This document shows positions 3,804 through 32,417 of a DNA stretch of 36,988 bases, one piece after another. Under the pieces are notes generated by a model. That model worked only from the letters and a program-made list of their open reading frames with translations, did not search any database and had not been told where the DNA came from. Made by a program: the position numbers and the translations under genes. Numbering within the stretch: position 1 is the stretch's first letter; each line of letters starts with the position of its first letter. Origin of the DNA: Clostridiales bacterium (GTDB taxonomy: Bacteria; Bacillota; Clostridia; Lachnospirales; Lachnospiraceae); assembly GCA_012522735.1 (NCBI GenBank), contig JAAYJU010000097.1, positions 1 through 36,988 on the forward strand, written 5' to 3'.

Positions 3804-5456
3804 TTAATATCTAAAATTAAAATAATCCTCTGGAGAAAGACCTTCATTATTCAGTTTTATGTATAAACTTAATCTATTTTGCTCTAGCAAGCCACTCATT
3901 CTTTTTATGTATTCTAAATTTAGATATTTCTCTGTAATTGCTTCTGCTTCTTTTTGCTTCCACCTATTTTCAGTCATATCAAGCAATTCTCTAAAGCATG
4001 TGGCATTTGATTTATTTACATCACCAAGTATATTCCATGCTGTCTCCTCATTTTTACTAATTACTTCTTTTATGTTCGGGTATTTTGAAATAAAATCTCT
4101 CTTCAGATAATTGATCAGCTTAAATTCTTCCCTTATAATACTACCAATCTTTTTAGCATAGAAATATACTTTTGAGTCTTCATTTTCATGATATTTATAA
4201 TATAGAAAATCTGATAATTTGCCGATATCTTCATTGACATAACGATATGAATAACATCCCTCGTTGCTTTTATCCTCTATAAGCAATCCATCATTCTTAA
4301 CCTTATAGTATAAGGGTGAAAATTCTGTGATACCGCATCTTTCAACAAGATAATACAGAACAGATGCAAAGCAGGTTTTCTCCAGAAAATCTATATTCGT
4401 ACGTAGCTTATCAAATGTAGAATAAGGGTTGAAGTTAATAAATCCGATATCTACCGCAATATCATTCTCTCTAAAGTATTCAATGGATTTCAGATTATCC
4501 TCAACGGTAGCAATTTTGCGGTACAGTTTTAAATCCTCCTTATTACCTGATTCCGTACCAAAAACAATACCAACCAACCCCGAAGCTTTGATTAACTCCA
4601 TTTTTTCCTTATCAAATTTCTTATATACTTCAGATCTAAAGTATGTTTCATAAGTAATATTTAAACCCGCGTCTACAATCTTACGTGCTATCTTCCACAT
4701 TCTGTCTTGATTATGAGCTTCGTGATCTTCGAAGCTATCGTCTATGAACCAGAATCGGTTTATACCATACTCTCGCACAATTTGTTTAATTTCTTCTACT
4801 ATATTTTCAGGACTTCTGCCCCGCCATCGATTGCTAGAATCCGTTCCCCAGAAATTATGGTGCCAGCAAAAACTGCAATTCCCATTACATCCTCTGCTAG
4901 TTGAAATATATGCATATTTTAGTTTATTGTTCATTAAAAGATCTCTTCTTGGAAATGGTAGCTTGTCAAGATCCTTAATCAGCTTTTCTCTAGGATTCTG
5001 AATTACCATACTCTTATTACGATAAATTAATCCCTTGATTGAACTGATATCCTCATTATTTTCAAGTGCATTAGCGAGATTTTTAAATACCAATTCACCT
5101 TCACCAACTATGGCATAATCAAAAAAAGAATACTTTTCAATCAGCTTTTTTCCATACAGAGTCGGCCAATAACCACCGATAGCAAATATAGCATTTGGTA
5201 ACCTTTCTTTGATTTTTAAACAAGCCTCACAGACAACTTTTTCTGTAGTAGAATACATTGTGACCCCTATGATGTCTGGTTGATCATGATAAATCTTATC
5301 ATAATCCAGATAGGAGCGAGTCGAATTGACTAATGATACATCAAATCCATCTTCTTCTAAGACGGCTGCTATCGAACATAGGCCGATTTCTTCGGTAATA
5401 ATTGCATTTTTTTCAGTTAATATACTTAATAATAGTATTTTCTTTTTCTTTTCCAT
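3804..5456 (-). CDS. B12-binding-domain radical SAM protein
   Basis: A 550-residue protein. Residues 1-150 are a Rossmann-like cobalamin-binding-type domain, with DIIGVTMYSTTEKV, GGYWPTLYG and VGEGE motifs as in BchE/P-methylase-class enzymes. The radical SAM core follows, with C190-x3-C194-x2-C197 (RGCNGNCSFCW) and a downstream GTESG segment. A C-terminal part of about 150 residues is family-specific. Such enzymes use a 4Fe-4S cluster, SAM and often methylcobalamin, for methyl transfer or rearrangement. It is the last gene of the minus-strand run and is separated from the ABC pair by 181 bp. It is related to, but clearly distinct from, the radical SAM protein at 17466. The substrate is unknown. 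Confidence 0.9.
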   Translation of the reverse strand: MEKKKKILLLSILTEKNAIITEEIGLCSIAAVLEEDGFDVSLVNSTRSYLDYDKIYHDQPDIIGVTMYSTTEKVVCEACLKIKERLPNAIFAIGGYWPTLYGKKLIEKYSFFDYAIVGEGELVFKNLANALENNEDISSIKGLIYRNKSMVIQNPREKLIKDLDKLPFPRRDLLMNNKLKYAYISTSRGCNGNCSFCWHHNFWGTDSSNRWRGRSPENIVEEIKQIVREYGINRFWFIDDSFEDHEAHNQDRMWKIARKIVDAGLNITYETYFRSEVYKKFDKEKMELIKASGLVGIVFGTESGNKEDLKLYRKIATVEDNLKSIEYFRENDIAVDIGFINFNPYSTFDKLRTNIDFLEKTCFASVLYYLVERCGITEFSPLYYKVKNDGLLIEDKSNEGCYSYRYVNEDIGKLSDFLYYKYHENEDSKVYFYAKKIGSIIREEFKLINYLKRDFISKYPNIKEVISKNEETAWNILGDVNKSNATCFRELLDMTENRWKQKEAEAITEKYLNLEYIKRMSGLLEQNRLSLYIKLNNEGLSPEDYFNFRY

Positions 5457-5494
5457 AAAGTCACCTTATTATCATACCATTATAGGCATGATAC

Positions 5495-5530
5495 TGCCGC
5501 TACAAATAGTCTATTCTATCTATAGCGGCA
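5495..5530 (-). other. Stem-loop in the 181-bp gap before the last radical SAM gene
   Basis: TGCCGCTA (5495-5502) pairs with TAGCGGCA (5523-5530), with a weak inner ATAG/CTAT stem. There is no U-tract after it in the direction of transcription, so it is unlikely to be an intrinsic terminator. It starts about 40 nt upstream of the ATG at 5456 and could be an RNA processing or regulatory structure. The rest of the gap (5531-5637) shows only a small CATCT/AGATG hairpin. Confidence 0.35.
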
Positions 5531-5637
5531 TACCTTTCTTAAAATTATACTATTGTTCAGAGCCTATAGGACTGCCAACATCTATAAAAAGATGCTTCAC
5601 GATTGCCTAGGATCCTGTGCCTTCCTTTATAGCATAC

Positions 5638-7350
5638 TTATCCCTGCTCTATAATCAGCTGATAGTATACCCCTTTCTTTTCCATCAACTCATCATGATT
5701 TCCTAATTCCACTAATTTCTTATGATCCATGACCAGAATGAGATCAGAGTCCATCACGTTATGGATTCTGTGCGCTACTACAATAAGTGTCTTTCCCTGT
5801 TTTTTTAGTTCATTAAGGCAATCCATAATCTTATCTTCCATGGCTATGTCGAGTGCTGAGGTTGCCTCATCAAGTATTAGAACCTCCGGGTTTCCAACAA
5901 GTAATCTGGCCAATGCCAGCCTTTGTCTTTCTCCACCGGATATGTTGGCTCCTCTATCTACAAGCAAAAAATTATATTCTTTATCAAGCCCAATAATATA
6001 TTCATGTATATTCACTGCGTGGCAAATATTCTCCATGGATTTTTGTGGAACAGCTCTGCCAAACAATATGTTATTTTGAATGGTATCATAAAACATATAT
6101 GGATCTTGCCTGCAACATGCCATTATAGAATATAGCTTTTGGGGATTGATTCTCTGCACCTTATGCCCATTTATTGTAATCTTCCCTTTGTCAGGATACA
6201 TTAAGGATAGCAAAAGCTTTGTTATAGTAGACTTTCCGCTACCACTTTTGCCGACAATTCCCACCTTCATTCCCTGCTTAATCCCAAAACTAATGTCCTC
6301 AATCGCGTAATCGGAATTGTCCTGATACCGATAATAAACATGGTCAAATACAGCCTCATGAAATTCCATAATATCTTCTGTATGCCGCTTTATCCTAATT
6401 GTTCCCGTTATATCATGTAGCCGCTTAATCTTTGAACCGACACTGGATATGCTTACAAGCTCTGAATAGGCCTGCTCCATAGAATTAATCAACATGGAAC
6501 ATAGCTGATATTCTACTACATAGGTTGATATTTCAAGCTTACCCTGCATTGTAAGATATCCTCCGTAAGCCAGTACAGTAAAAGAAATACTCCACTTAAG
6601 AATATTTGTCATAAAATAATTCAGATTACCATATCTGTTTATTCTTTTTGCCTCACTGTAATAGTCGCTAAAATACTTTTCGTACCTATCTTTCTCCCAT
6701 TCTCTCCGATTATAAATAATAATTTCGCGTGTTGCAGATAAACCTTCCTCAATAATAGTATGTAATTTATTAGTTTTTTCCATATATCTGCCAAACTGCC
6801 TCCAAAAAATACCTGTAAAATATCTGCCTATGATGACATAAGCTATGCCCAGCATTAAAATTAACAGAAACATCTGTTTATTAATATTAATCAGAATGAC
6901 TGATATTGCTATAAATTGTATATAGTACTTACAACCTATAAATTTGGCTAATATACCTTCTCCAATTTCATCTGAATAATGGGTAAGCAAATCGATATAG
7001 TACTGTTTATTTTCTTTCTTGATATCCCGTAGCGAGAGCTTATGAATATTATACATCACTGTATCAACTACATTTCGCTTAATTGGATTTTGGATTTGAA
7101 GAATCCCTTGGTACCTTAGTAATATTGAAAAAATAGCGTTTAAAATAATTATGACTGTGAGGATAAACGCAAGGTGGATACTTAAGCTTAAATCGGTATG
7201 CATAAGTGCATCAATAACATATTTCTGCATCCATACTTCTCCTATCCCCAGAAAGGTTGAGATCAATAGAATGATTACCATAATTATAAGTATAGAATAA
7301 ATCTGTACTCTTTTAATAATCCATATAAATTCATCAATACATTTTTTCAT
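5638..7350 (-). CDS. ABC exporter half-transporter (permease-ATPase fusion), second subunit
   Basis: A 570-residue type IV ABC exporter. The first ~300 residues hold about six hydrophobic membrane segments (for example ILIIMVIILLISTFLGIG). The ATPase domain follows with Walker A GKSGSGKST, Q-loop CRQDPYMF, signature ISGGERQR, Walker B VLILDEATSALD and switch histidine VAHRI, all canonical. Its start overlaps the end of the other half-transporter by 17 bp, implying coupled translation and a heterodimer. The context makes export of the cluster's product, and thereby self-protection, the likely role. Lipid or peptide export cannot be excluded. Confidence 0.93.
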   Translation of the reverse strand: MKKCIDEFIWIIKRVQIYSILIIMVIILLISTFLGIGEVWMQKYVIDALMHTDLSLSIHLAFILTVIIILNAIFSILLRYQGILQIQNPIKRNVVDTVMYNIHKLSLRDIKKENKQYYIDLLTHYSDEIGEGILAKFIGCKYYIQFIAISVILININKQMFLLILMLGIAYVIIGRYFTGIFWRQFGRYMEKTNKLHTIIEEGLSATREIIIYNRREWEKDRYEKYFSDYYSEAKRINRYGNLNYFMTNILKWSISFTVLAYGGYLTMQGKLEISTYVVEYQLCSMLINSMEQAYSELVSISSVGSKIKRLHDITGTIRIKRHTEDIMEFHEAVFDHVYYRYQDNSDYAIEDISFGIKQGMKVGIVGKSGSGKSTITKLLLSLMYPDKGKITINGHKVQRINPQKLYSIMACCRQDPYMFYDTIQNNILFGRAVPQKSMENICHAVNIHEYIIGLDKEYNFLLVDRGANISGGERQRLALARLLVGNPEVLILDEATSALDIAMEDKIMDCLNELKKQGKTLIVVAHRIHNVMDSDLILVMDHKKLVELGNHDELMEKKGVYYQLIIEQG

Positions 7351-9097
7351 CCTTCACCACGATTCCTTTACAGATTAGTTTTGTCAGGTAACCATTACGA
7401 CTGATGAGCTCCTCATATCCACCGTCTTCAACAATTCTGCCATTTTCCAGTACAAATATCCGATCAGCGTTTTTGATAACATTCAATCGATGCCCGGCAA
7501 ATATGATGGTCTGCTCCGTCTGTTTTAGTGCAGATAAGATTTTCTTCTCATTCATAAGGTCAAGATTCGCTGTTACTTCATCCAAAAGTAAAACCTTGGG
7601 ATGACGTAATAGCAATCGTGCCAGAGAAATCCGCTGTTTTTCTCCATCTGATAATCCATCACCCCTATCCTTCAAATTTGTATCATATCCATTCGGAAGA
7701 TTTTTTACAAATTCGTCAGCACCTGCAAGCTCTACCACATCCATAATATCCTCATCTGTCGCCTTTATATTGGCAAACCTTAGGTTATCTTTAATTGACA
7801 TGGAAAACAGATAGGTATCTTGAAATGCGATACCGATATCATTGCGCAGCTCCTCCATGCTATACTCATTGACCGGTCGGTCATCTATTAGAATTTCTCC
7901 ACTATTACATTTATAACAGCCTACAATCAGCTCAAGTATTGTCGATTTACCTGAACCGCTCATACCAACAAGCGCCACTTTCTCCCCTTGATTTACTACA
8001 AATGATACATCCGTAAGTACTGGATGGTCCTGATGATATGCAAAGCTGACATTTCTAAATTCTACCTTTCCTTGTGATACTGAAGAGCTTTTTTTGAGCC
8101 CGGTTTGAACTTCATCATCTCTGTTCATGAAATCATACAGTTTGTCAGCCGCAAAGATATGTTTATTCTGTTCAATGATTAAGTGATCCAGATTCTCTAA
8201 AGCGCCAAATGCTATCGACAGATACATAAAGTCTGCTATTAGCACCCCTAAAGTATCTTGACCGTTGATAGCTGATATAGTGCATGTAATAATATATGTC
8301 GTATATGCGACAACCTTACAAGCTAAAAATACATTTGTCTTTAGATACCCTAAGAGAAATAACCGGTTCCCCTTAACCACAGATTTTTCATAGGCTGTAG
8401 TTACCCTGTTCGAATTCCATTCCCCCGCGTCATATACTCTAATTTCATCTATAGCCTCGACAGCATCATAGGCATTTTTATTGTATTCAATAGTTGCTTC
8501 AGCTAAAGCATTACCCGTTGATTCTATTCTGTGTTCAAAAATCTTATTCCATATAACTACCATAATATCGCTAATTATTACGACACCTGCCAGAATTAGG
8601 CTCCCGTTATTCAATAGCATAATAACCGCCAACAGGTTCGATAAAAGGACCATAATAATCTGCGGGACATATTGCTGAAACAAAAAATAGATTGATATAA
8701 CATTATTGGACAGTAAAGACATTACTTCTCCTTTTGCAGTCTGTCCAAAATACGGCAATCCCATCTTACGGGTTTTATTATAGACAGACCACTGTATTTC
8801 TTTTGTGCCCTTTTCTACATATACAACTTCAAAGCATTTTCCAGCCATATAGGATACTATCATAACCACCACCGTCACAGCAGCATAGAATAACAGCTCT
8901 TTGTTCAATATTATTGCATTTTCTGAAACGGTATTATCTATAAATATTTGTATCAGTTTTGGAACAAATACATTACCGATTTCATATATTAGCCTGAAAA
9001 AAATAGCCATGATTACATATAGCAGATATTTTTTCAAATAGGATAAGCTCCAAAAATAGAGCTTTAGATAGTTTACTCTTTTTTTATTTTCACCCAT
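7334..9097 (-). CDS. ABC exporter half-transporter (permease-ATPase fusion), first subunit
   Basis: About 587 residues when started at the ATG at 9097, one base after the metK stop codon; the frame is open to 9124 but that would overlap metK. It has an N-terminal membrane domain with around six segments, then an ATPase with Walker A GMSGSGKST, Q-loop FQDTYLF, signature LSDGEKQR (serine, then aspartate in place of the usual second glycine), Walker B VLLLDEVTANLD and FAGHRL. The Walker B catalytic glutamate is present. Paired with the gene at 5638 it would form a heterodimeric exporter. The tight metK-ABC-ABC spacing indicates one transcript. Confidence 0.92.
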   Translation of the reverse strand: MGENKKRVNYLKLYFWSLSYLKKYLLYVIMAIFFRLIYEIGNVFVPKLIQIFIDNTVSENAIILNKELLFYAAVTVVVMIVSYMAGKCFEVVYVEKGTKEIQWSVYNKTRKMGLPYFGQTAKGEVMSLLSNNVISIYFLFQQYVPQIIMVLLSNLLAVIMLLNNGSLILAGVVIISDIMVVIWNKIFEHRIESTGNALAEATIEYNKNAYDAVEAIDEIRVYDAGEWNSNRVTTAYEKSVVKGNRLFLLGYLKTNVFLACKVVAYTTYIITCTISAINGQDTLGVLIADFMYLSIAFGALENLDHLIIEQNKHIFAADKLYDFMNRDDEVQTGLKKSSSVSQGKVEFRNVSFAYHQDHPVLTDVSFVVNQGEKVALVGMSGSGKSTILELIVGCYKCNSGEILIDDRPVNEYSMEELRNDIGIAFQDTYLFSMSIKDNLRFANIKATDEDIMDVVELAGADEFVKNLPNGYDTNLKDRGDGLSDGEKQRISLARLLLRHPKVLLLDEVTANLDLMNEKKILSALKQTEQTIIFAGHRLNVIKNADRIFVLENGRIVEDGGYEELISRNGYLTKLICKGIVVKDEKMY

Positions 9098-9098
9098 A

Positions 9099-10298
9099 CT
9101 AAACTGTAGCCTCAATCTCTTCAACTCTATTCTTCAATTCCTTTACCTTGTCTTCTCTTTCCCATGGTAAATCCAGATCGCTCCTACCAAAATGTCCATA
9201 AGAGGCTATCCTTCTGTAGATAGGTCTTCTTAAGTCGAATTGACGGATGATTGCGGAAGGACGTAAATCAAACACCTGGTTTATTGCAGCTATAATTACC
9301 TCTTCCGTAACCGTATTTGTACCAAAGGTGTCGATACTTACGGAGACCGGATGCGCTACCCCAATGGCATAAGCCAGCTGAATCTCGCATCTATCTGCAA
9401 TCTTTGCCGCTACAACGTTTTTAGCAACCCAACGAGCAGCATAGGTAGCACTTCTGTCCACCTTTGTAGGATCTTTTCCGGAAAATGCCCCTCCCCCATG
9501 CTTGGCATAGCCGCCATAGGTATCAACGATTATCTTTCTGCCCGTTAATCCACTGTCTGCAAGCGGACCTCCAACTACAAATTTTCCAGTCGGATTGATA
9601 AATATCTTGGTATCCTTTGCTAATAGAACTACAGGGAGAGTCGGTTTGATAACATATTCAACGATATCATTATGTAATCTGTCCATACTTATATCCTCTG
9701 AATGCTGGGAAGATACTATTACTGTGTCAATTCTGACTGGTAGGTTATCTCTGTATTCAACCGTTACCTGAGATTTACCGTCAGGCCCCAAATATGGTAA
9801 TATCCCTTGCTTCCTGACTTCAGCTAATTTTCGGGTAAGCTTATGGGATAGGACTATAGGAAGTGGCATCAACTCAGGTGTTTCATTACAAGCATATCCA
9901 AACATCATTCCCTGATCTCCGGCTCCAATTTCCTTATCATTTACAGCCTTTCCATTTTTGCTTTCCATCGACCGATTTACTCCTATAGCTATATCCTTTG
10001 ACTGTTTACCGATGGAAGTTATTACCCCGCAGGTGCTCCCTTCAAATCCGAATTTATTATTGTCATAACCGATATCCAGTACTACATCTCTGGCAACCTG
10101 CGCTATATCAACATACATTGTACTGCTTATCTCGCCCATTATATTTATAATTCCCCTTGTAATAGTGACTTCACATGCTACTCTGGCTTCCGGGTCATGT
10201 TTTAAGTATTCGTCTAGAATTGCATCCGAAATTTGGTCGCAGATTTTGTCCGGATGCCCTTCAGTTACCGATTCTGACGTAAATAAATATTGCTTCAT
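9099..10298 (-). CDS. metK: S-adenosylmethionine synthetase
   Basis: A 399-residue protein makes SAM from methionine and ATP. All signatures are present: GHPDK near the N-terminus (methionine/ATP site), [12 protein letters not shown], and the glycine-rich [16 protein letters not shown]. The start at 10298 is chosen because GGAGG lies five bases upstream; an alternative in-frame start four codons earlier lacks a site. The length matches the family. A MetK inside a mobile cluster is unlikely to be the only copy in the cell. It probably supplies SAM for the three radical SAM proteins encoded nearby, some of which may use two SAM per turnover. Confidence 0.97.
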
Positions 10299-10368
10299 TA
10301 CAACCTCCAATCCGCTGTCTTACAGCGCCTTTAGTAATTTAATAAAACTACCAGCCTATGTATAGAAT

Positions 10369-10659
10369 TTAGTCTGGCAGATTAAGAATTTTATTCATCC
10401 TTTTCTCTGTATAAGCTACTATTGAAGAAATCTTGTTAAATTGATTCATGTCAAGCATTTCATATTCAAATTCTATTTCTAGTTGTAACTCGATATTCGT
10501 AACAATTTTGACAAACAAAAGTGATGACAATTTCATATGAGCCAGGATGGAATCTATGTCAAGAGTGTCCACATAGGTTATATCTTGCTGGTTTTCACCA
10601 TCATCCTTAATTGCTTTCTTCATTATATCCAAAACAATTTTTGCAACCTGTAAATCCAT
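10369..10659 (-). CDS. Free-standing acyl/peptidyl carrier protein (1 of 3)
   Basis: A 96-residue protein if started at ATG 10659, where AGAGGAG sits six bases upstream; the frame is open to 10701. The helix-loop-helix layout and the motif MKLSSLLFVKIV match the carrier-protein site, where the second serine would take phosphopantetheine. The usual D-S-L is varied to S-S-L, so the fit is weaker than for the other carriers. Acidic residues follow, as expected (ELQLEIEFE). It lies 47 bp after a BtrH-like gene, and the two may work as an acyltransferase-carrier pair. Confidence 0.75.
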   Translation of the reverse strand: MDLQVAKIVLDIMKKAIKDDGENQQDITYVDTLDIDSILAHMKLSSLLFVKIVTNIELQLEIEFEYEMLDMNQFNKISSIVAYTEKRMNKILNLPD

Positions 10660-10705
10660 TCCTAACTCCTCTCTATATAATGCTCTATTCGTTTCAATCA
10701 TTTAT

Positions 10706-14699: not shown

Positions 14700-14713
14700 T
14701 ATATACTCTCCTT

Positions 14714-15439: not shown

Positions 15440-15494
15440 CCTATTCACCTCCAGTGTTAGCTTTTATCCATACTACGGTTTTTATAGCTAAATA

Positions 15495-21457: not shown

Positions 21458-21473
21458 ATCTTTCTCCTTTTTT

Positions 21474-23209: not shown

Positions 23210-23501
23210 TACTTTCCTCCTCTTTCTTTGAATTAAGTTCAACCATATCTGTAACAATGGAAATTAATTGATCTAGATTACCGATATAATTTGAATTAAT
23301 AAGATCCTCTTCGAACTCAATATCCAATTCTGCTTCCAGATTCACAAGTAACTTGATAAATAGCAGTGAATTTAATCCAATATCAATAAGCCCTTTGTAA
23401 TACATAGCTTCATCTTTAATCGATATATTAGCTTTTTCAGACAATATATCCTTTACACAATTCTTAATATCCTGCACTAAAATAACTACCACTCCTTTCA
23501 T
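23142..23501 (-). CDS. Free-standing acyl/peptidyl carrier protein (3 of 3)
   Basis: A carrier protein of about 110-119 residues. The motif GLIDIGLNSLLFIKLLVNLEA marks the phosphopantetheine serine (N-S-L instead of D-S-L), followed by the acidic stretch ELDIEFEEDL. The frame is open upstream to 23651, but that part overlaps the esterase gene. ATG 23501 has no clear ribosome site, and AAAGGAG just inside it suggests that translation may begin at a GTG at 23477 or nearby, so the start is uncertain. The acidic, polar C-terminal tail (KKEEESNVYRQSND) overlaps the start of the radical SAM gene. Confidence 0.8.
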   Translation of the reverse strand: MKGVVVILVQDIKNCVKDILSEKANISIKDEAMYYKGLIDIGLNSLLFIKLLVNLEAELDIEFEEDLINSNYIGNLDQLISIVTDMVELNSKKEEESNVYRQSNDQNMGANNRGVSQIL

Positions 23502-23544
23502 AAACGATACGTATAATAAAGCACTATCTTCCGTATGACATAAG

Positions 23545-25980
23545 CTATATTTCTTCAATGGCATCTCCCCATTCATATATCCTGTAATAAGTATTATTGA
23601 TAAGTATAAGCGCCTCATTATTCCAATACTCGTGTAATCCATTATTAGCAAATGGCAGTACTATCTTACGTATAAACATGTTTTTACGAAGCATTGACGT
23701 ATCATTTGTATGAACCAGCAATATACTCTTATCACTACTATTTGGATTAGGTACAATCTGCATAACACAATATTCCCCATAAAAACGCCTTCCTAGGTAC
23801 TCTATTGAATCATTGAATATACTTATTTTCACCGCAATGCATAATTTTTTTCTTATGCTTTCAACGTCTACGTTTATTAAAACCAAATGCTTATTGAGTT
23901 CACTTTCCGTAATAGTATCTGTATAATAGATAGGATAGTGTACTGCCAATTGTGAATAATATCCATTGCTCTGAGGATTTGCAAAGCTCTTCGCTGCAGC
24001 CAGTATCATTTTATCATCAGTATCAGGTATAATTATTCTCATCGGTCCCGTATATACGTCAAGTAGCCCATTCCCTTTTGCATAATCAATCGTTATATCT
24101 GCTTGGGGATTTACCACTAGCTCGTTTTCTTTGAGAAATAATATATCTATTGTATCCAGTTGATAATTTTTCAATGAAATAATCCTCCCATTGACAAGAA
24201 GAATAAAGTCCCTTTTGTCTATCATAGGAGGAATATCTATTCTGAAACCATCCGTATTCTGAATTTTGACGGATATTTTTCTTTCCGAAATAATATGGGC
24301 TGAAACGCAGGAATATCTAAAGCCATATTTAATTCCATAAAGCCTGATCCAATATGATTTGAGGTATCGGTTTCTTTCAGTACGGTAGTAAATATGTCTT
24401 GGATATTGGCTACGTACCTTATCAATAAATATTTTATACAAGGAATAATTAGAAAAATTAGCAACCACATGGTGAAGTTGGTTTTTTAGCTCTATCTGCT
24501 TATAATTTTTTATATCAATCATTGCGTTTTTAATATTATTCTCATTGTTTCTATAGCAGCTGTCCTTATTAGATACATGATTGATAATAGGTATATTAGT
24601 TACATTGCTGATATTAGGCTCATAAGCATATCCGGATATCGGGCATGCACCTGCTATCATATCAGGATGATTTTGTATTAGTGACCAGACGGCATAGCCT
24701 CCATTACTTTTCCCTGTTAAGTAAATTCGATCTGAATCTATTGAGTAATTGAATTTAATATATTCAATTGCCTCCAAGTAGCAAGCTTCACTTATATAGC
24801 TTCCACCTAAGATGCCCCTTCCTGCACAATTTGCTATCAGGTAGCAATCACTATCATCATAGTAGTATTGTGGAGTAATGTAATCAAAATCCAGAATGCC
24901 TAAACACACGATAAGGGCATATTGTTTCTTTGCATTATAACCAACCGGCAGATGGATAATAAGCTCCTGATACGACATATCAATATCAGAATAATAGTAA
25001 ACAATGTCTCTCCTGCTACTCTTACTAATATTCTCCTTCTTTAGTAAATGCCTAAGTTCTTTTAGTAAAGTGTACCTATCATCTGTAAAAGTCAGCTTAT
25101 TTCTATATTTTTCAATTCTCCCAAGAATTTCACCTTTTCCATAGGTAATATTCTGTGAATAGATGATAGCCTGATTTATTATATCTTCAGCTTCTTTCTC
25201 AGGAATCTGATTATACAGATTTAAGATTCCGGGGCTGATATCAATATGTAACTTAACCTGCTGAAGCGAAGTATTATTTTCTTTTATTTGATAGGTGTAT
25301 TTTTTTCTTGTCTGTAATACAAGCTTCTGACGTATACTTTCCTTTTCTAGTATTGTACTACAACTTTTTAAGATTGCATTATTAGTCAGTAACATAAAAT
25401 CCACTATATTTTGCTGTTTATCATATCTGGTAACCAGCTTAACTTTATCTTCGAGATATTCTTTTTTACGTATTGGCATTTGGATGTTTTTAGCAATCTC
25501 TATATAAGGGAAAAGCTGAATATACATATAGGGAGGAAAGATATTTTTCTGCATAAGCTTATAACCCACAATAAACTCATTCTTTCCCGGCATCAGGTTA
25601 ATTGTAAAATGCTCCACCTCTTGCCTCTTACTGCATATTGAGATACATCTGCTGTTAACCCAGAGCTTGCTGTATCCTGGCAGGTCTGTTTCAATAACAA
25701 TTTTTAAGTCCCTGTCACTTATCACCTGAGCATAAAGATATACTTCATTGTTTGCACCAAAGTCCGATAATTCATTTGCATAATAATTATTTGCTTTATC
25801 AAACAGCTCGTAATCTTTGAATCCATATTGTTCTATTCTCTGTAAACTCATCAAAACACTATCCGGTATATCGAGGTTAAACAAATCATACATCTCATTA
25901 GTGATTTCGCTTGTTGATAGGATCAGGAACTGGCTGATATAATCTGTTACTTCCTTGTAATACAATGGGCTGTACTGCAA
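23545..25980 (-). CDS. Large serine esterase/peptidase-like protein with extra N- and C-terminal regions
   Basis: An 811-residue protein. Residues about 335-520 are an alpha/beta-hydrolase of the prolyl-oligopeptidase/polyhydroxybutyrate-depolymerase type, with nucleophile Ser425 in LTGKSNGGYAVW, an acidic residue near HVSNKDSCY (473) and a histidine at 503/504 (LHHVVANF). The first ~330 residues have a beta-rich beginning (sandwich-like, LYAQVISDRDLKIVIETDL) and a helical linker. The last ~290 are also beta-rich and not recognised. No signal peptide is seen, so it is probably cytoplasmic. It may release, trim or activate the product. TTG is the start codon and the ribosome site is weak. I know no cluster with this exact architecture. 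Confidence 0.8.
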   Translation of the reverse strand: MQYSPLYYKEVTDYISQFLILSTSEITNEMYDLFNLDIPDSVLMSLQRIEQYGFKDYELFDKANNYYANELSDFGANNEVYLYAQVISDRDLKIVIETDLPGYSKLWVNSRCISICSKRQEVEHFTINLMPGKNEFIVGYKLMQKNIFPPYMYIQLFPYIEIAKNIQMPIRKKEYLEDKVKLVTRYDKQQNIVDFMLLTNNAILKSCSTILEKESIRQKLVLQTRKKYTYQIKENNTSLQQVKLHIDISPGILNLYNQIPEKEAEDIINQAIIYSQNITYGKGEILGRIEKYRNKLTFTDDRYTLLKELRHLLKKENISKSSRRDIVYYYSDIDMSYQELIIHLPVGYNAKKQYALIVCLGILDFDYITPQYYYDDSDCYLIANCAGRGILGGSYISEACYLEAIEYIKFNYSIDSDRIYLTGKSNGGYAVWSLIQNHPDMIAGACPISGYAYEPNISNVTNIPIINHVSNKDSCYRNNENNIKNAMIDIKNYKQIELKNQLHHVVANFSNYSLYKIFIDKVRSQYPRHIYYRTERNRYLKSYWIRLYGIKYGFRYSCVSAHIISERKISVKIQNTDGFRIDIPPMIDKRDFILLVNGRIISLKNYQLDTIDILFLKENELVVNPQADITIDYAKGNGLLDVYTGPMRIIIPDTDDKMILAAAKSFANPQSNGYYSQLAVHYPIYYTDTITESELNKHLVLINVDVESIRKKLCIAVKISIFNDSIEYLGRRFYGEYCVMQIVPNPNSSDKSILLVHTNDTSMLRKNMFIRKIVLPFANNGLHEYWNNEALILINNTYYRIYEWGDAIEEI

Positions 25981-26039: not shown

Positions 26040-27050
26040 TCAAGTTAGGTCTTTATGATTTGCCAATAAAACAAAGACCGAATAATTCAGTCTTTGTTCA
26101 AGCATTTGATTTTCCCTGAGCCTTCTAATTGTCTTTTCAAATTTGTCCCGTATATTATTACCCCGAAACTTATAGTTTAGTAAAGCCAACCGTATAGACA
26201 GCCAATTACTCAATATTGTATCAGCCAGAGCGGTCATCTCTTCATTTCTTAAAAAGTAATCCACTTTATACTTCTCAACTGTTCTGGCATTCACTATCTC
26301 ATTAAGTTCCTCAATGACATTGTCAATATCATTTTCCAGCTCTCTATAACCGGATAAATAGTTTATCAGTTCATTCACGATTACTTCGAGGGGATCAGCC
26401 TGCTTTAGCATTCTATCCAGACTGCGTAGATAATATAACCGATAATTCATATAAGAGAATTCGTCGGTTGTGCCTTTATTATCAGATAAGCCTGACATAA
26501 AGCCAGTAAGCAGAGCTTCCTCTGGGAATTGTGAATGATAGTGTCTGACATAGCAATCGGCTGCATTTTTTAAGCTTTCATATGATATTACTACCGGGGA
26601 ATAATTCAATATGTTCTTCTGACTTTGCTCAATAATATTGAATTTTTCTTCTATATCATCATATCCATAGATCAGAAGACTGTGGTCTAAATGCTCCTTG
26701 TGGTAAAAATCCTTTCTGATATCTTCCTCATAGCAATCCACCTTTACAATGACGGGTGTCTCATTGACAATAGCCTTTCTTATAGTATCAATCAGAAAAT
26801 CCGTGCTGTAGCTTGTCATATTACTAATATTCATATCTGCCAATACAGCGAATAAAGGAGTTTCAGAATAATAATTTATTTTCCCTCTTAATACCTTATC
26901 TTCCGAATAATCATAAAAAACAGCTTCATGCGCCAGAACATTCCATACACTTCCGCTAAATTTATTTATAACCGAGAATAGGGAATTGTAAAAGCAATCC
27001 TTATAAAAAAATAAATTAAACGGTTCCATATTACTGATTATCTTTTTCAT
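26040..27050 (-). CDS. BtrH-like (C39-peptidase-fold) protein, candidate acyltransferase (2 of 3)
   Basis: A 336-residue protein. Cys19 in FFYKDCFYNSLFSVI and His123 in LDHSLLIYGYDD are placed as in BtrH N-terminal family proteins, where the cysteine carries the acyl group. The strand ETPVIVKVDCYEED matches the family's central sheet. The C-terminal ~150 residues are helical and unassigned. GGAG lies eight bases before the ATG. It is upstream of the 811-residue esterase and downstream of the glycosylase. Compared with the 10706 paralogue it keeps the same catalytic pair but little other identity, so the proteins probably act on different carriers or acceptors. Confidence 0.75.
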   Translation of the reverse strand: MKKIISNMEPFNLFFYKDCFYNSLFSVINKFSGSVWNVLAHEAVFYDYSEDKVLRGKINYYSETPLFAVLADMNISNMTSYSTDFLIDTIRKAIVNETPVIVKVDCYEEDIRKDFYHKEHLDHSLLIYGYDDIEEKFNIIEQSQKNILNYSPVVISYESLKNAADCYVRHYHSQFPEEALLTGFMSGLSDNKGTTDEFSYMNYRLYYLRSLDRMLKQADPLEVIVNELINYLSGYRELENDIDNVIEELNEIVNARTVEKYKVDYFLRNEEMTALADTILSNWLSIRLALLNYKFRGNNIRDKFEKTIRRLRENQMLEQRLNYSVFVLLANHKDLT

Positions 27051-27106: not shown

Positions 27107-27673
27107 CTATACACTCCCTTCTTTACTTTTGTAACAGATACTATCATGGTTAATCACAACTCCGATTGCCTGCAAATATGCATATGTAGTTACCTCTCCC
27201 ATAAATTTAAATCCTTTTTTCTTAAGATCCCTTGCTACCGTGGCAGCAAGCTTCTGATGTTCCTCTGGTAAATTGTAATCGTGGATAGTAATCACTTTAT
27301 TATTGGTAAATTTCCATAAATAATTTGAAAAGGATCCATATTCATTTTGAATCCGTAAAAATAATTTTGCATTATTTACGGTGGCTGCAATCTTTGCCTT
27401 GCTTTTTATAATACGGTCATCGTTTTGCAGCTCAGCTATCTTATTATCATCGTAGTTTGCTATAATCTTAGGATTAAAATTATCAAATGCTTTTCGAAAG
27501 CCTTCCCGTTTCTTCAAAACAATTACCCAGGACAATCCTGCCTGAAACGATTCTAAAAGCAGCATCTCAAACAGGAGCTTATCGTCATAAACAGGTATCC
27601 CCCATTCCTCATCATGATATTTTTGTGTGTAATCATCTACCCACATACATCTGCGCAAATTATCTTTACTCAT
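27107..27673 (-). CDS. tag: DNA-3-methyladenine glycosylase I (Tag family)
   Basis: A 188-residue protein. It excises alkylated adenine from DNA to start base-excision repair. It matches E. coli Tag across its length: CMWVDDYTQKYHDEEWG at the start, LLESFQAGLSWVIVLKKRE, KKGFKFMGEVTTYAYLQAIGVV and NHDSICY at the end. The N-terminal Cys and His and the final His and Cys are the structural zinc ligands. ATG 27673 is chosen (AAAGGAG seven bases upstream) over a GTG two codons earlier. It is embedded between pathway genes with normal operon spacing and no promoter of its own that I can see. This placement suggests self-protection against a DNA-damaging product (inference). Confidence 0.93.
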   Translation of the reverse strand: MSKDNLRRCMWVDDYTQKYHDEEWGIPVYDDKLLFEMLLLESFQAGLSWVIVLKKREGFRKAFDNFNPKIIANYDDNKIAELQNDDRIIKSKAKIAATVNNAKLFLRIQNEYGSFSNYLWKFTNNKVITIHDYNLPEEHQKLAATVARDLKKKGFKFMGEVTTYAYLQAIGVVINHDSICYKSKEGSV

Positions 27674-27721
27674 ATCCACTCTCCTTTTTATAATTTAATT
27701 TTTAGTGTTTCCGATTAATCA

Positions 27722-29689
27722 TTAAGAATATGCCATAAATCCAGTAGGACGTTGCTTTTCCATATGCTCATCAATACATCTCATAACATCCTCCGTACGC
27801 TCCAGCATAAGCAAATGAGTTGAGGAGGGAATGCAGTGATATATTGAATGCTCTATAATATCATGTGCCCATAAGGACTGATTTGCTGATGCTACTTGAT
27901 CATATTCTGCAGATATGATGGTTACGGCTTGGGTTAATGTACTCAATATGTCACTAACATCGTATTTGTAATATTCCATACAAATTCTTAAAAAATTTAC
28001 AGTCTGGTTTTCTGATTGGAACAAAGCAAGCAGCTTATCCCGATATATTGTAGGAAGAATTTCAAAAAAAACGGATTCAATATCATCACTTAAATCTACA
28101 GATGGTGTTCGAAACAGACCGCCAAATATCAACTGCATATAAATCCTCAACAGACGGGGCTTCCCATCGACAATCTCCTTAATAAGCGAAATGTTATCTC
28201 TAAATTTTATGTTATTGCTTTCGATTCCATGATATGGTGCATAATCACCTGCCATAAAAATCAGTGATTTTACCTTGTTCTGATGCTTTGACGCATAAAT
28301 AGCAGCTGATTTTATACCCGAGCACCAGGCAAGTATATGAAATTTATCCAACTTCTCATAAGAGACAATACGTTCAATATCTCTTACCTGCGATGAAATA
28401 CCAAATTCCCCTCTCTCAAAAAGCTCTTTGCTTCCTTCCATTACTCCGCGGATTTCCCAAATGATAACGTAATAATTATTAGAGAGCTCATAAATAAGCC
28501 TATCCCATGCTTCCACATATGCTCCGAAGGCATTGACAATAAGAATTGGCTCGCCAGAACCGGTAGAATAGTACACCATCTTCTGTCCCTTATCCAAGGT
28601 AATAGACTTCATCCTTCTGCCCACACTGATTTCATCAATACGTCTCTTTTTCGAAATTATATGTTCCGCAATTAATCTATAGTAATTATCCTTATCTTCC
28701 GCCATACAGTAGTCAATCTGAACTCGTTTTCCGTTATTATTATTATATAATGAGGTTTGGTTTCCGAATATCGGTACATAAAATCCAATCAGGCTATTAA
28801 ACATGATATCTATAAAATTAAGCTTCTCGATATCATCGATAACACGGATAAAGTTGATCTTTTTCCCGCTTACGTTCGATATACTTTTTACCGCACTCTG
28901 TATAAAATCATCAACCCGAGTATTTGAATGATTAAGAATACAGTACTCTGCAATCTGCTCTTTATAGTCCTTTTTATAAGGTCTATTATAATGTAATAGG
29001 ATATTATTGGCAATATTTTCTTTATCCAGCAAATTTATCATTTGATTACTTTTTGCCACAATCAATAAATTATGCGTACTAAAATATTCAGGAATTCTTA
29101 ACTCAATCCATGATACAAAGTCAAGCAGCCGGTAGGCAAACCTTTCACACGGATCGACTGACCCGTTTTTCACATCATTTGTTAAGAGTGGAATATGATA
29201 AATCTTACACGGGATATCAAATGATATTAACATTTTAATTTGGCCTTTATCATCTTCCTCTTCCTCCGAAAAAACCGAACAAATATAATTTAGGTCTGTC
29301 AGCTTAAGATATCTTTTAGTTTTCTCAAGAAAAGACCGCAAATTTTCTATTTCCTTGCTTGTGCTATTGTTAATCTTTACATTCTCTGTCAAACCGCATG
29401 GTTTATAATGCCTTACTTTTGAAAACATACCATCAGTAAACCAGACACTTATTGGTAACTCTCCTAACTGCTCATATAACTGATTCCTATCTATGAAATG
29501 AATTTTATCCAGACAGAGTATATATTGTTTCTTTTTAGGAATATCACTCAACTTATCTATCTGTAAAAAAAGATTGTTTTTTCTATTTTCATCTCCAATA
29601 GAGTAGATCTTTTTCCCCTGAATAATTAGTTGCGAAATTATCTGTATATCAAATAGATCCTGTATATCAAGATACAAAACCCCTTCCAT
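27722..29689 (-). CDS. Degenerate SDR-like domain fused to Cys-type alpha/beta-hydrolase (paralogue 2)
   Basis: A 655-residue protein with the same architecture as the one at 15495. The N-terminal ~340 residues retain only the outline of an SDR/thioester-reductase fold, with no glycine-rich cofactor loop. The hydrolase part is better conserved: WCSG elbow with Cys456 in HILAWCSGIKSA, Asp597 (EYDQVA) and His625 (STHLLMLE). Both paralogues share the Cys nucleophile, so it is not a random change. AAGGAGGTG before the ATG is one of the strongest ribosome sites in the operon. Likely roles are acyl transfer, product release or cyclisation from a carrier. Confidence 0.8.
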   Translation of the reverse strand: MEGVLYLDIQDLFDIQIISQLIIQGKKIYSIGDENRKNNLFLQIDKLSDIPKKKQYILCLDKIHFIDRNQLYEQLGELPISVWFTDGMFSKVRHYKPCGLTENVKINNSTSKEIENLRSFLEKTKRYLKLTDLNYICSVFSEEEEDDKGQIKMLISFDIPCKIYHIPLLTNDVKNGSVDPCERFAYRLLDFVSWIELRIPEYFSTHNLLIVAKSNQMINLLDKENIANNILLHYNRPYKKDYKEQIAEYCILNHSNTRVDDFIQSAVKSISNVSGKKINFIRVIDDIEKLNFIDIMFNSLIGFYVPIFGNQTSLYNNNNGKRVQIDYCMAEDKDNYYRLIAEHIISKKRRIDEISVGRRMKSITLDKGQKMVYYSTGSGEPILIVNAFGAYVEAWDRLIYELSNNYYVIIWEIRGVMEGSKELFERGEFGISSQVRDIERIVSYEKLDKFHILAWCSGIKSAAIYASKHQNKVKSLIFMAGDYAPYHGIESNNIKFRDNISLIKEIVDGKPRLLRIYMQLIFGGLFRTPSVDLSDDIESVFFEILPTIYRDKLLALFQSENQTVNFLRICMEYYKYDVSDILSTLTQAVTIISAEYDQVASANQSLWAHDIIEHSIYHCIPSSTHLLMLERTEDVMRCIDEHMEKQRPTGFMAYS

Positions 29690-29773: not shown

Positions 29774-30874
29774 CTACCCTAAAAAGCTCTCCAAATATTC
29801 CTTTTCTTCCTTCCATAGTTTCTTAAGCTGAAGTACAATCTCATTCAGAATTTCATCTTTGTGTATTATATTGTATTTTGCAACCATCATCGTAATTATA
29901 TAAGCGATAGAAGCCAGATTATCGTAATTACAGGCCAGTTCCAAATACTTATGTTTTTCATTATCACTCCCTGAATTTTCCAGGAACTTCATTCTTTGTA
30001 TCATAATTTTTTTATGATCATATAGCAGGTAGAATGGACGAATATCAATAAAGCCTTCCCCTTTCGATATTTTTATATAATTAATTAGCACTTCATATAT
30101 ATCCATACCATATACAATCAGTTCACCATTTTTCTGATTATACAGCTTCCAGTATTCCGGCACCACGTTTTGATAATACTGAATAAGCCCGTTAGTAATA
30201 TTTCGCTCATCAAATTCATAATCACATTCTTCATTGAACTGATATAAAAAAATTAAGCCATTAAGATAAGAACAATATTTTTCATATTTTACCTTAAGAA
30301 AAGCCTTCTCCATATCTTCGAAAGATATATCCGCAAATTCATAGTTTGTAGTTTGAAATAAAAAGTCGGCACATTTGAAGGTTTCCTGGCTCCGATCATA
30401 ACCAAAAATTAAAGTATCATGTACATATTCATTCTTTTTATAGAGTCTGCTTTTCTGTATATAATAGAAGTTTATCATCAAATGAACATATTGATTAGAA
30501 TCAATTGCATTTATAATAAATTGCGTAATTGAAATTTTATCCTTTATTGTATCCCATGATATCTTCTGGGTAATCAGCCATTTACAGCAATCTGACGGAC
30601 GTATTTCATATGGCATCGGAAAATAGAAATCGCACCAGGAATTTCTCTTATAGTTACGATTACTGAAAAACAGAATGTAATTACTATAAATCCATGATTC
30701 TGCTTTATCGTATGCTTCCAAAATCGAAAGCAAATGTGCGTGCTGCGTATAGGTTGAGATCATTGGATACTTAATCGGCAAACTTTTTTCATATATACTC
30801 ATATGTTTTTCTGTCATCCCTCCTCTTAATATTTCATAATAAAATAAGCTTCCTTCTGGTGCTTTTCCCTGCAA
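29774..30874 (-). CDS. BtrH-like protein lacking the catalytic cysteine (3 of 3)
   Basis: A 366-residue protein if started at TTG 30874; ATG codons at 30817 and 30802 are alternatives, the first directly behind AGAGGAGGG. The layout follows the other BtrH-like proteins, with the family histidine kept in YVHDTLIFGYDRS (His152). The N-terminal site reads STYTQHAHLLSIL, so the position of the nucleophilic cysteine appears to be histidine. It may be a structural or regulatory partner of the two cysteine-bearing paralogues, or use different chemistry. The C-terminal half is helical. It sits just after the ECF/DUF4430 pair, with a perfect palindrome over its first codons. Confidence 0.6.
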   Translation of the reverse strand: MQGKAPEGSLFYYEILRGGMTEKHMSIYEKSLPIKYPMISTYTQHAHLLSILEAYDKAESWIYSNYILFFSNRNYKRNSWCDFYFPMPYEIRPSDCCKWLITQKISWDTIKDKISITQFIINAIDSNQYVHLMINFYYIQKSRLYKKNEYVHDTLIFGYDRSQETFKCADFLFQTTNYEFADISFEDMEKAFLKVKYEKYCSYLNGLIFLYQFNEECDYEFDERNITNGLIQYYQNVVPEYWKLYNQKNGELIVYGMDIYEVLINYIKISKGEGFIDIRPFYLLYDHKKIMIQRMKFLENSGSDNEKHKYLELACNYDNLASIAYIITMMVAKYNIIHKDEILNEIVLQLKKLWKEEKEYLESFLG

Positions 30875-30887
30875 GGTAAACCTTGCA
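30870..30887. repeat. Perfect 18-bp palindrome at the start of the third BtrH-like gene
   Basis: TGCAAGGT-AA-ACCTTGCA. It covers the TTG start candidate at 30874 and the AAGG that would serve as its ribosome site, 5 bp downstream of the ECF S-component stop. In RNA it could fold with a small loop and hide that site; in DNA it could bind a dimeric protein. It is the longest exact palindrome I noticed in the operon gaps. Confidence 0.5.
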
Positions 30888-30892
30888 ACTAT

Positions 30893-31414
30893 TTACGGCT
30901 CAGTATACATATAACTAATGTACAGTTTACCAAGAAATATATGCAGCTTTTCACCCAATAGCAGCATGATAAAATAATTACTAATCATGTGAACTGTACT
31001 AAACAATATACCGGCTAAAAAATACATAATACCTGTCCAAAATCCCGAAATCATACATATAATTATGGAATAAAACAAATCAAAGCAAAATCCAAAAAGC
31101 GCAGAAAATACTGCCCTAAACAGATTACTCTCATTCATTTTCTTTTTAAATAATACTGTTAGGCAGACTAAAAGTGGCCACATAAATATATAACCACATA
31201 CCCAGAAACCAATTCCATAAAAAAGTATTTCAAGCATAACATATATAAACGCAATATATATCGTTCTTATACCTATTATGCAGGTTAATAAAATCAACAT
31301 GAAAGTCACTAATTCTATATTAGGAAGTGAAGCTAGAGCAATTTTACATGTAAAGACAATCACTGCACACATAGTCAGTATCAACATTTCCTTTACCGTT
31401 AATTTTTTACTCAT
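30893..31414 (-). CDS. ECF transporter S component, probably for cobalamin or a precursor
   Basis: A 173-residue, very hydrophobic protein with about five to six membrane segments and few charged residues between them, starting MSKKLTVKEMLILTMCAV. Size and pattern fit substrate-binding S components of energy-coupling-factor importers, which borrow ATPase and T subunits from the host. Its ATG follows the stop codon of the DUF4430 gene directly. The partner and the B12-type radical SAM enzymes in the same operon point to cobalamin or a relative as substrate (inference). Another vitamin remains possible. Confidence 0.7.
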   Translation of the reverse strand: MSKKLTVKEMLILTMCAVIVFTCKIALASLPNIELVTFMLILLTCIIGIRTIYIAFIYVMLEILFYGIGFWVCGYIFMWPLLVCLTVLFKKKMNESNLFRAVFSALFGFCFDLFYSIIICMISGFWTGIMYFLAGILFSTVHMISNYFIMLLLGEKLHIFLGKLYISYMYTEP

Positions 31415-31831
31415 TTATTGATACCCTACATTGAAAACAAATGTATATTTATCTCCATCCTTTATATTGGTAGAATCCACCCCCGTCTGTGCGAACTCAT
31501 CGTTAATATAAAAGCCCCACCACTCTTTACGTGTTTCATCAGCCTCCATTCCATCAAGTGATGTAATATATCTATTTATCGTGCTGCCGCTGTATTGTAC
31601 AATGCCAAGTTCATCTATGATTTCCCCTAAGGTAATACTTTTCGTCGTTACCTCATATGTATTCGTATAATGCAAAGCATTGTCATTTACTACTTCAATT
31701 GTAATTCTCTTTTCCGTTTGTAGCTGCTCATCCTTTGGATAATTTCTAAATCCAAAAAACATAATAGCTGCCAACACTATAATAAGTAACGAACAAAACG
31801 CTCTTGGATAACTCCTTATTAGCTTTCGCAT
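31415..31831 (-). CDS. Membrane-anchored DUF4430 (transcobalamin C-terminal-like) protein
   Basis: About 138 residues from ATG 31831, which has AAGGAG six bases upstream; an in-frame ATG at 31858 lacks one. An N-terminal hydrophobic anchor (AFCSLLIIVLAAIMFFGF) leads to an extracellular domain with ITLGEIIDELGI, INRYITSLDGMEA and WWGFYINDEFAQTGVDST. These are hallmarks of DUF4430, a domain related to the ligand-binding C-terminal part of transcobalamin. It is often encoded with ECF S components, as here. It probably captures the ligand at the cell surface for the adjoining transporter. Confidence 0.85.
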   Translation of the reverse strand: MRKLIRSYPRAFCSLLIIVLAAIMFFGFRNYPKDEQLQTEKRITIEVVNDNALHYTNTYEVTTKSITLGEIIDELGIVQYSGSTINRYITSLDGMEADETRKEWWGFYINDEFAQTGVDSTNIKDGDKYTFVFNVGYQ

Positions 31832-31904
31832 TTCCTTCTCCTTCCTTACCTTCTCCATTAGATAATAAATTCTATTATGTTTTTAAGTATTCTAATATCT
31901 GCCT

Positions 31905-32417
31905 CTAGGTGTGAATATTAATGCCCAAGTCAATCATTCGGATACTTTCATTGATTGTAAACTCTACTTTTACTCTGCCCTTTCGTTTATCAATCTTCTT
32001 TATGATATGTTCTCTCCCTACTAAAGGACCATCCGTAATTACTAATCTGTCTTGTATAAGATTAGCATGCGATATATCGATTAACCCATCTCGATCTGCC
32101 AGAAGTAAAATCAACTCTATTTCATCAGGCTGAATCTCAAGGAAATCATATCCGTTCTTTAAAAATCGAATAAAATGCGGACCCTCTCTTCCACCATAAG
32201 AGAATTGATATATGCTATCAGTCTGTATCAGAACATACCCCGGAAACATTTTAAGGATAACCTCCTTCCAAATACCATGCTTCCTCTCATATACCTTCCT
32301 TCTTGGAACAAGTAAATTAAACTGAGTATCTCCGAGAAGATATGTTTTAGCCTTATTAATAAATTGACAGAACTCATACTCATATCCGCTTTCCACAAAT
32401 ATTGCATACCAGCTCAT
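31905..32417 (-). CDS. loaP: LoaP-like NusG paralogue, processive antiterminator
   Basis: A 170-residue protein. Its NGN domain starts SWYAIFVESGYEYEFCQFI and includes LLVPRRKVYERKHGIWKEV and KMFPGYVLIQTD; its KOW domain contains ITDGPLVGREHIIKKIDKR. This is the NusG/RfaH/LoaP fold. LoaP-type proteins ride on RNA polymerase and let it pass terminators in long biosynthetic operons of Firmicutes. It is the first gene of a run of about 28.6 kb and is encoded next to what it would control. AGGAG precedes the ATG. A housekeeping NusG is unlikely: there is no secE or ribosomal protein context, and the NGN insert is shorter. A terminator-like hairpin inside the operon (15510-15538) is a possible target. 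Confidence 0.85.
   Translation of the reverse strand: MSWYAIFVESGYEYEFCQFINKAKTYLLGDTQFNLLVPRRKVYERKHGIWKEVILKMFPGYVLIQTDSIYQFSYGGREGPHFIRFLKNGYDFLEIQPDEIELILLLADRDGLIDISHANLIQDRLVITDGPLVGREHIIKKIDKRKGRVKVEFTINESIRMIDLGINIHT

Follow-up and report, generated by a model that had tools for sequence, protein, structure and literature searches.

How can an assembly line with adenylation domains and several carriers join its building blocks when no intact condensation domain is found in the genome that encodes it? This question is raised by a gene cluster at positions 3804-32417 of contig JAAYJU010000097.1 (assembly GCA_012522735.1) from a Clostridiales bacterium of the Lachnospiraceae. We analyzed the whole contig of 36,988 nt, referred to below as the window, by listing its open reading frames (ORFs) and scanning the encoded proteins with profile families (Pfam and TIGR/NF models); the genome comprises 2.82 Mb in 259 contigs with a completeness of 91.99%. 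We lean towards the reading that the window holds a self-contained, mobile thiotemplated assembly line which forms an amide bond without a condensation domain, with a cysteine enzyme encoded at 26040-27050 as the candidate catalyst. For comparison, a pattern search of 84,980 species genomes yielded, among 104 pattern matches, four relatives of the first of two Cys-type alpha/beta-hydrolases of the cluster (Cys-hydrolase 1), a number that is a lower bound. These come from Anaerosporobacter, a Tissierellales metagenome-assembled genome (MAG), Ruminiclostridium papyrosolvens and [Clostridium] polysaccharolyticum, and all five clusters, the window included, share a core of nine genes.

Family scans and ORFs bore out the gene inventory of an earlier reading of the sequence (the original prediction) almost entirely, except for its count of BtrH-like proteins. 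Two proteins combine an adenylation domain with a carrier domain (A-T proteins), both of them core genes and, like all genes between 3804 and 32417, located on the minus strand. A-T protein 2 (11714-13648; AMP-binding 269.5 bits, PP-binding) bears the specificity code TDWQFGIIYK, and the code TDWQFGI(I/V)YK is found in all five clusters, with V for I in one. The usual Asp of position 235 is replaced in this code and an Asp stands at 236, a pattern that may point to beta-amino acids; the code positions were placed by motif. A-T protein 1 (19100-21487) carries the code DAQDLGVVDK in all five clusters, reported in the available part of PMC12283262 for recognition of both Glu and Gln, and is predicted from this code to load Gln or Glu. 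Three further carriers are free-standing: the core carrier at 15185-15448 (PP-binding 21.4 of 20.8 bits), one at 23142-23651 (22.2 of 20.8 bits, Ser in IGLNSLLF), which has an uncertain start codon and overlaps its neighbours, and one at 10369-10701 that scores just below the cut-off (19.0 of 20.8 bits, Ser in MKLSSLLF).

The half condensation domain without HHxxxDG that had been noticed earlier is indeed a C-terminal lobe only. When aligned from the five clusters, the first 205 residues of A-T protein 1 align with columns 215-457 of a condensation-domain template, its C-terminal lobe (hhalign probability 97.4, E 5e-11), and two control comparisons gave probabilities of 0.3 and 0.1. Since HHxxxDG lies at residue 145 of the template's first sequence and the match starts at column 215, the half that bears this motif is missing. 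The original prediction had conceded that a condensation domain encoded elsewhere would overturn it. A search with PF00668 gave no match in the window's genome, within the limit that about 8% of this genome may be missing, and was positive in 4 of 14 control genomes. The condensation domain with HHxxxDG that marks a canonical nonribosomal peptide synthetase (NRPS) was therefore not found there.

The original prediction had assigned amide formation to three BtrH-like proteins or to the Cys-hydrolases. One BtrH-like protein stands firm, the core gene product of 26040-27050. Its fold is that of CcbD, CtaG and AziU2/U3, papain-like with a C-terminal helical domain, and its residues Cys19, His123 and Glu141 are invariant in all five clusters; from their position in the sequence, distances aside, we infer that they form a Cys-His-acid triad. 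The protein is not filed as a member of the BtrH family because its BtrH_N score stays below the Pfam gathering score (26.1 of 29.7 bits). The model suggests that it works like CcbD/CtaG/BtrH-type cysteine condensing enzymes, with carrier-dependent amide formation as its candidate role. Through the shared CcbD/CtaG fold and the invariant Cys, His and Glu the amide-bond idea gains a precedent: in the sources available in part, CcbD is an amide-forming, carrier-dependent cysteine enzyme and CtaG is proposed to be one. The other two BtrH-like proteins fared less well: that at 29774-30874 is related (hhalign probability 80, E 1.4e-5 against 26040-27050) but lacks the N-terminal Cys, its first Cys being residue 81, and that at 10706-11665 shows two matches below cut-off (BtrH_N 17.3 of 29.7 bits, DarH 18.5 of 300 bits) and no match to the 26040-27050 profile. 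A different, second BtrH-like protein of R. papyrosolvens (L015:4709-5734) passes the BtrH_N cut-off with 43.0 of 29.7 bits. Among plasmid records the protein at 26040-27050 found no match.

Conservation of the core was then compared protein by protein. Identity to the window amounts to 49-51% for A-T protein 1, 46-49% for A-T protein 2, 65-75% for a PhpK-family radical S-adenosylmethionine (SAM) enzyme, 63-76% for a B12-binding radical SAM enzyme, 40-49% for Cys-hydrolase 1, 54-74% for the carrier at 15185-15448, 51-56% for VOC protein 1, 66-75% for an aminotransferase and 32-41% for the BtrH-like protein at 26040-27050. The gene order A-T protein 1, PhpK-family enzyme, hydrolase, carrier is identical in all five clusters. 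Within the regions compared, counterparts of VOC protein 2 and of the third radical SAM protein were observed only in the Tissierellales MAG and in [C.] polysaccharolyticum. In the Tissierellales cluster a NodU-like carbamoyltransferase (L024:17066-18820, 176.5 of 1000 bits) adjoins the BtrH-like gene.

Two observations weigh against the 26040-27050 enzyme as a simple replacement for condensation domains. In Anaerosporobacter, condensation domains lie beside the core, for example in a 1479-residue protein with two of them that adjoins the BtrH-like gene, and in the Tissierellales MAG they again lie beside the core (C7, 46-53 kb). The core thus occurs with or without an ordinary NRPS, and with condensation domains in two of the five clusters the BtrH-like enzyme does not always replace them, which weakens the claim of a general stand-in. 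The cluster contigs of R. papyrosolvens (C63) and [C.] polysaccharolyticum (C35) are free of condensation domains, although all four relatives' genomes contain some.

The Cys-hydrolases, present in two copies as predicted (15495-17411, core gene, with an Abhydrolase_1 match; 27722-29689, 33% identical to the first), are two-domain proteins and are better read as carrier-to-carrier aminoacyl shuttles than as amide formers, a role predicted here. The triad C436, D577 and H605 (numbering of hydrolase 1) is present in all eight aligned cluster copies. CmaE and SyrC have an alpha/beta-hydrolase fold with a Cys nucleophile, and the window hydrolases share with them the alpha/beta-hydrolase domain with Cys-Asp-His. 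As described in the parts of the literature available, CmaE/SyrC take an aminoacyl group off an A-T protein and hand it to a different carrier, which is the step proposed here; unlike them, the window proteins contain an extra domain of about 330 residues, and the likeness drawn here is one of fold and proposed role. In [C.] polysaccharolyticum the counterpart of the carrier 15185-15448 is fused to the hydrolase in one 676-aa ORF. The structure model of hydrolase 1 reached a mean pLDDT of 72.7 and a pTM of 0.52, and fold searches with the whole model were taken up by the hydrolase domain. We considered a thioester-reductase/SDR identity for the N-terminal domain, at which the 'TGIYDLFG' start of the R. 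papyrosolvens copy had hinted, but it found no backing: Pfam, PDB sequences (one unrelated match, E 0.09), hhalign against SDR and a PF07993 search, which was without match at the window's hydrolases, gave no support.

Full-length relatives of Cys-hydrolase 1 are rare. Of 391 genomes of the class, 44 match it at E 0.001, two of them with a full-length homologue (the window's own included); the other 42 hold partial matches, none stronger than E 2e-12, almost all of which fall in the generic hydrolase region, with one (E 8.6e-4) in residues 2-117. Among 398 genomes of the phylum the window's own is the sole match at E 1e-30. No relative was found in viral contigs, and 29 plasmid records match, none over more than 80% of the length and the eight listed essentially in the hydrolase half. 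On the Sinorhizobium meliloti plasmid pSmeRU11d (L046:8011-9954), a two-domain Cys-hydrolase of 647 residues with its Cys in GWC belongs to an NRPS cluster that also has an MbtH gene and a gene resembling those of class I tRNA ligases. It resembles the window's proteins (hhalign probability 99.6, columns 205-650), its N-terminal domain alone giving a non-significant probability of 0.2; unlike them it adjoins an ordinary condensation-adenylation-carrier NRPS.

Around these proteins the cluster encodes the predicted tailoring enzymes. Two of the three radical SAM proteins are core genes: a B12-binding enzyme at 3804-5456 (PF04055 and PF02310 above cut-off, motif CNGNCSFC, found in all four relatives) and a PhpK-family methyltransferase at 17466-19097 (CxxxCxxC as CSLHCAFC), whose TIGR04479 score of 629.5 and those of its four orthologues (656.5, 683.5, 738.2 and 627.2 bits) exceed the cut-off of 600; its B12-binding match is below cut-off (PF02310, 25.9 of 32.1 bits). 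The third, RaSEA-like protein (21896-23257) has the motif CPYRMRGGKLSGCSMC and two matches below cut-off (PF04055 23.8 of 29.5 bits, TIGR01210 64.7 of 212 bits). Further genes are the core class I/II aminotransferase (13515-14717; Aminotran_1_2 158.7 bits) and VOC protein 1 (14714-15139; Glyoxalase 27.8 of 20.6 bits), each found in all four relatives, and VOC protein 2 (21474-21899), which is methylmalonyl-CoA-epimerase-like (Glyoxalase_4 72.4 of 27 bits; epimerase model 72.9 of 114.95 bits, below cut-off). A second SAM synthetase gene, metK (9099-10310, three SAM synthetase domains), accompanies the one on contig C60; in four of the five genomes the cluster contig bears a second metK. That of Anaerosporobacter was found on this contig at a distance of about 30 kb from the core (G391:C15:247183-248373), outside the 50 kb first compared, so that this cluster may reach further.

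The PhpK match suggested a phosphonate product. The cluster enzymes exceed the cut-off of the family named after PhpK of the phosphinothricin pathway; unlike that pathway, the five cluster genomes show no phosphoenolpyruvate (PEP) mutase above cut-off (TIGR02320, one at 136.5 of 319.55 bits), in a search that none of the 14 control genomes passed either and that hence has no positive control. For this reason a phosphonate product was rejected; methylation of phosphorus by the enzyme at 17466-19097 is unlikely and methylation of carbon likelier. The substrate of PhpK is a glutamate analogue, which fits an adenylation domain loading Gln or Glu. Anaerosporobacter also encodes a second PhpK-like radical SAM protein (L021:1195-4575, 451 of 600 bits) beside an asparagine synthase, with two U32 peptidase-like proteins further on.

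The whole cluster lies on an island of 34.15 kb (about 372-34523, ends accurate to about 2-3 bp, GG core) inserted in a gene for an SsuA/NMT1-like substrate-binding protein. The transporter gene is split, with its N-terminal part at 34517-34948 and its C-terminal part at 3-365, near both window ends. The island was placed at these positions because one intact gene in a sister genome (locus L033), the empty site, aligns to both flanks with an overlap of 2 bases (GG). The two closest sisters within the genus have an uncut target gene, whose frames span 338 and 359 residues, and of 34 genomes in this genus the window's own is the single one with the cluster. In three more distant genomes of the genus (G397:C82, G396:C107, G410:C30) the target frame spans just 150-173 residues, possibly because a contig ends there or because something else was inserted at this site. 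A large serine recombinase (385-2232, minus strand; Resolvase, Recombinase and Zn_ribbon_recom all above Pfam cut-off) is encoded just inside the left end and likely mobilises the island. The recombinase, the splitting of the target gene, its intact form in a sister genome and the short core are features of a large-serine-recombinase integrative element, for which excision and transfer are predicted. Besides the second metK the island brings its own phosphopantetheinyl transferase (PPTase; 33323-34009, plus strand; ACPS 67.6 of 25 bits, AASDHPPT_N 51.4 of 27 bits). To its right, the stretch 35018-35784 holds an orphan ORF of 156 residues and fails to align to L033; it therefore looks like a separate insertion or replacement.

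Sequence and models directly show the genes of the cluster, their mobile island, the core shared by five clusters, the adenylation-domain codes, and the fold and invariant residues of the 26040-27050 enzyme; beyond these we infer the following steps. The island's PPTase would prime the carriers, and A-T protein 1 would load Gln or Glu, which a Cys-hydrolase would move, as acyl-cysteine, to the stand-alone carrier 15185-15448. There it may be modified by the PhpK-family and B12 radical SAM enzymes, the aminotransferase and a VOC protein, with the extra metK presumably feeding the radical SAM enzymes. A-T protein 2 would load a second acid, probably a non-alpha-amino one, and the BtrH/CcbD/CtaG-like enzyme would take one acyl group onto Cys19 and pass it to the partner's amine. 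The product would leave through the ABC exporters, with the long operon under the control of LoaP. A small modified amide containing glutamine or glutamate is the likeliest product.

A rather doubtful alternative, yet the one that survives best, is that the core forms no amide: the A-T proteins would only tether amino acids for modification by the radical SAM, aminotransferase and VOC proteins, and the Cys-hydrolases or the esterase would release a modified amino acid in free form, in some genomes feeding an ordinary NRPS. Carrier-bound tailoring of a single amino acid is known for coronamic acid (PMC8748450, in the part available), full NRPS modules stand beside the core in two of five clusters, and two hydrolases and an esterase-like protein are at hand for release. 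However, the BtrH/CcbD/CtaG-like gene is kept in all five clusters, including the three without a condensation domain on the contig (window, R. papyrosolvens and [C.] polysaccharolyticum), and two different A-T proteins are always present. We consider it unlikely that a hidden ordinary condensation domain acts in trans: the condensation domains in all four relatives' genomes and the 8% incompleteness of the window's genome would allow for it, but the empty PF00668 search, the two relatives' cluster contigs free of such domains and an island that otherwise carries what it needs, PPTase included, argue against it.

A further hint comes from a 3-methyladenine DNA glycosylase of the Tag type (27107-27679; PF03352 219.5 of 25 bits), of which the genome has a second copy on contig C64. 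Such a gene lies inside the cluster in the window, in [C.] polysaccharolyticum, where it is the only copy found in the genome, and in the Tissierellales MAG. An unrooted six-sequence tree places these three in one clade (support 0.99), separate from the further copies in the window's genome and the Tissierellales MAG; the copy near the R. papyrosolvens cluster groups with a housekeeping copy (support 0.73), and the Anaerosporobacter genome gave no Tag match. The available parts of PMC5684135 and PMC9570651 describe DNA glycosylases in biosynthetic clusters as protecting against DNA-alkylating products. That three of the five clusters hold a cluster-type Tag is a hint of a product that reacts with DNA, or else of SAM damage. 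Adenine in DNA can be methylated by SAM itself, and in a duller reading Tag could repair the methylation caused by extra SAM. A strict coupling of Tag to metK failed in Anaerosporobacter, where a second metK occurs without a Tag match, which speaks against a strict SAM-damage reading.

It is improbable that the BtrH-like enzyme makes a strained, aziridine-type ring like the AziU2/U3 complex instead of an amide, with the glycosylase protecting against a DNA-alkylating product: Cys19, His123 and Glu141 fit the type of triad with which CcbD transfers acyl groups, the cluster-type glycosylase is missing from two of five clusters, and SAM methylation together with the second metK could explain Tag without a reactive product. 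Equally speculative, and held with little confidence, is the idea that the two-domain Cys-hydrolases, of which the window has two and of which a relative occurs even in Sinorhizobium, are a new carrier-to-carrier class that both shuttles and joins, and that, together with two radical SAM enzymes of the B12 type, they make a glutamine derivative that is strained and alkylates DNA, with Tag as the protection against it; if true, this would be an anaerobic route without condensation domains to a DNA-reactive product on a mobile element.

Returning to amide formation by the 26040-27050 enzyme, the assembly principle is already known, from lincosamides and as a proposal for closthioamide, and the solution is hence not of a new kind; as early as 2010, PMC2922099 had predicted that nonribosomal operons encode transacylases of the BtrH and alpha/beta-hydrolase families. 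In lincosamide synthetase, as far as the partial sources describe it, a cysteine-protease-like enzyme (CcbD/LmbD) forms an amide from a carrier-bound amino acid without a condensation domain, as proposed here, and a carrier unfused to the adenylation domain and an aminotransferase-like pyridoxal-phosphate protein are shared with the window; it differs in being actinobacterial and in its amino-sugar acceptor, those sources do not mention radical SAM B12 enzymes, and sequence identity between CcbD/LmbD-type enzymes and 26040-27050 is about 10%. Closthioamide assembly (CtaG, CtaE, CtaH), from similarly partial sources, is likewise clostridial and thiotemplated with free carriers and the CtaG fold, but builds beta-alanine thioamides and is described there without mention of an A-T/PhpK/Cys-hydrolase core. 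Unlike closthioamide, family scans of the window ORFs revealed no CtaC-type PP-loop gene. Near the R. papyrosolvens cluster a WbuX/LarE-like PP-loop enzyme (L015:1871-2800; marginal scores for QueC and Asn_synthase, all other models below cut-off) recalls the sulfur-inserting CtaC. Judged by titles and the beginnings of abstracts, none of the papers listed on BtrH in nonribosomal systems, PhpK in Clostridia, R. papyrosolvens clusters and closthioamide/CtaG, MIBiG not covered, describes the cluster; to our knowledge the gene combination and the conserved core are new.

The remaining genes complete the island; beyond the predicted inventory it holds the PPTase, LoaP, the glycosylase, a DUF4430/membrane pair, an AraC-GyrI regulator and the recombinase. 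Intergenic gaps between 3804 and 32417 measure at most 84 bases, except for 181 bases before the last gene, and 260 bases are free upstream of the first; several overlaps reflect uncertain start codons. The shared direction and short gaps suggest one long operon with the antiterminator LoaP (31905-32417; NF033641 162.3 of 125 bits) at its head. LoaP-like (NusG-family) genes lie near four of five clusters, R. papyrosolvens being without one in the 40 kb examined. The two ABC exporter halves (5638-7350 and 7334-9124, each ABC_tran plus ABC_membrane) were recovered as predicted, as was the 811-residue esterase-like protein (23545-25980; peptidase S9 and PHB depolymerase models, both below cut-off), which has homologues of 31-43% identity in three of four relatives. 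Outside the operon lie a helix-turn-helix regulator (32678-33022, minus strand; HTH_19, HTH_3) and an AraC-type protein with a GyrI-like ligand-binding domain (2844-3671, plus strand; GyrI-like 70.4 of 26 bits, HTH_18), a 49% homologue of which adjoins the Tissierellales cluster. A role of the latter as cyclopropane hydrolase was rejected and a regulator preferred, because PMC5684135, in the part available, counts AraC-type GyrI-like members as regulators and reports no hydrolysis by Rob. The DUF4430 gene (31415-31858; PF14478 49 of 23.8 bits) and the small membrane protein (30893-31414; no Pfam match, 47% homologue in [C.] polysaccharolyticum) possibly serve vitamin uptake for the B12 enzymes. 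The membrane protein may be an energy-coupling factor (ECF) S component. A cobalamin riboswitch for this pair was sought with Rfam in 136,988 bases, with no match at gathering score, and the literature, in the parts available, likewise lent no support.

Taken together, CcbD/CtaG-fold amide formation, described in few pathways, becomes testable in a compact cluster with five natural variants, three of them without a condensation domain on the cluster contig and two of these in R. papyrosolvens C7 and [C.] polysaccharolyticum DSM 1801, both named strains. From the conserved adenylation-domain codes the first building block is predicted to be Gln or Glu, and, no PEP mutase having been detected in these genomes, their PhpK-family enzymes can be used to test the family's methylation target when phosphonate is absent. 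In the island, such an assembly line travels as a single unit, together with a PPTase, a metK, regulators and exporters of its own.

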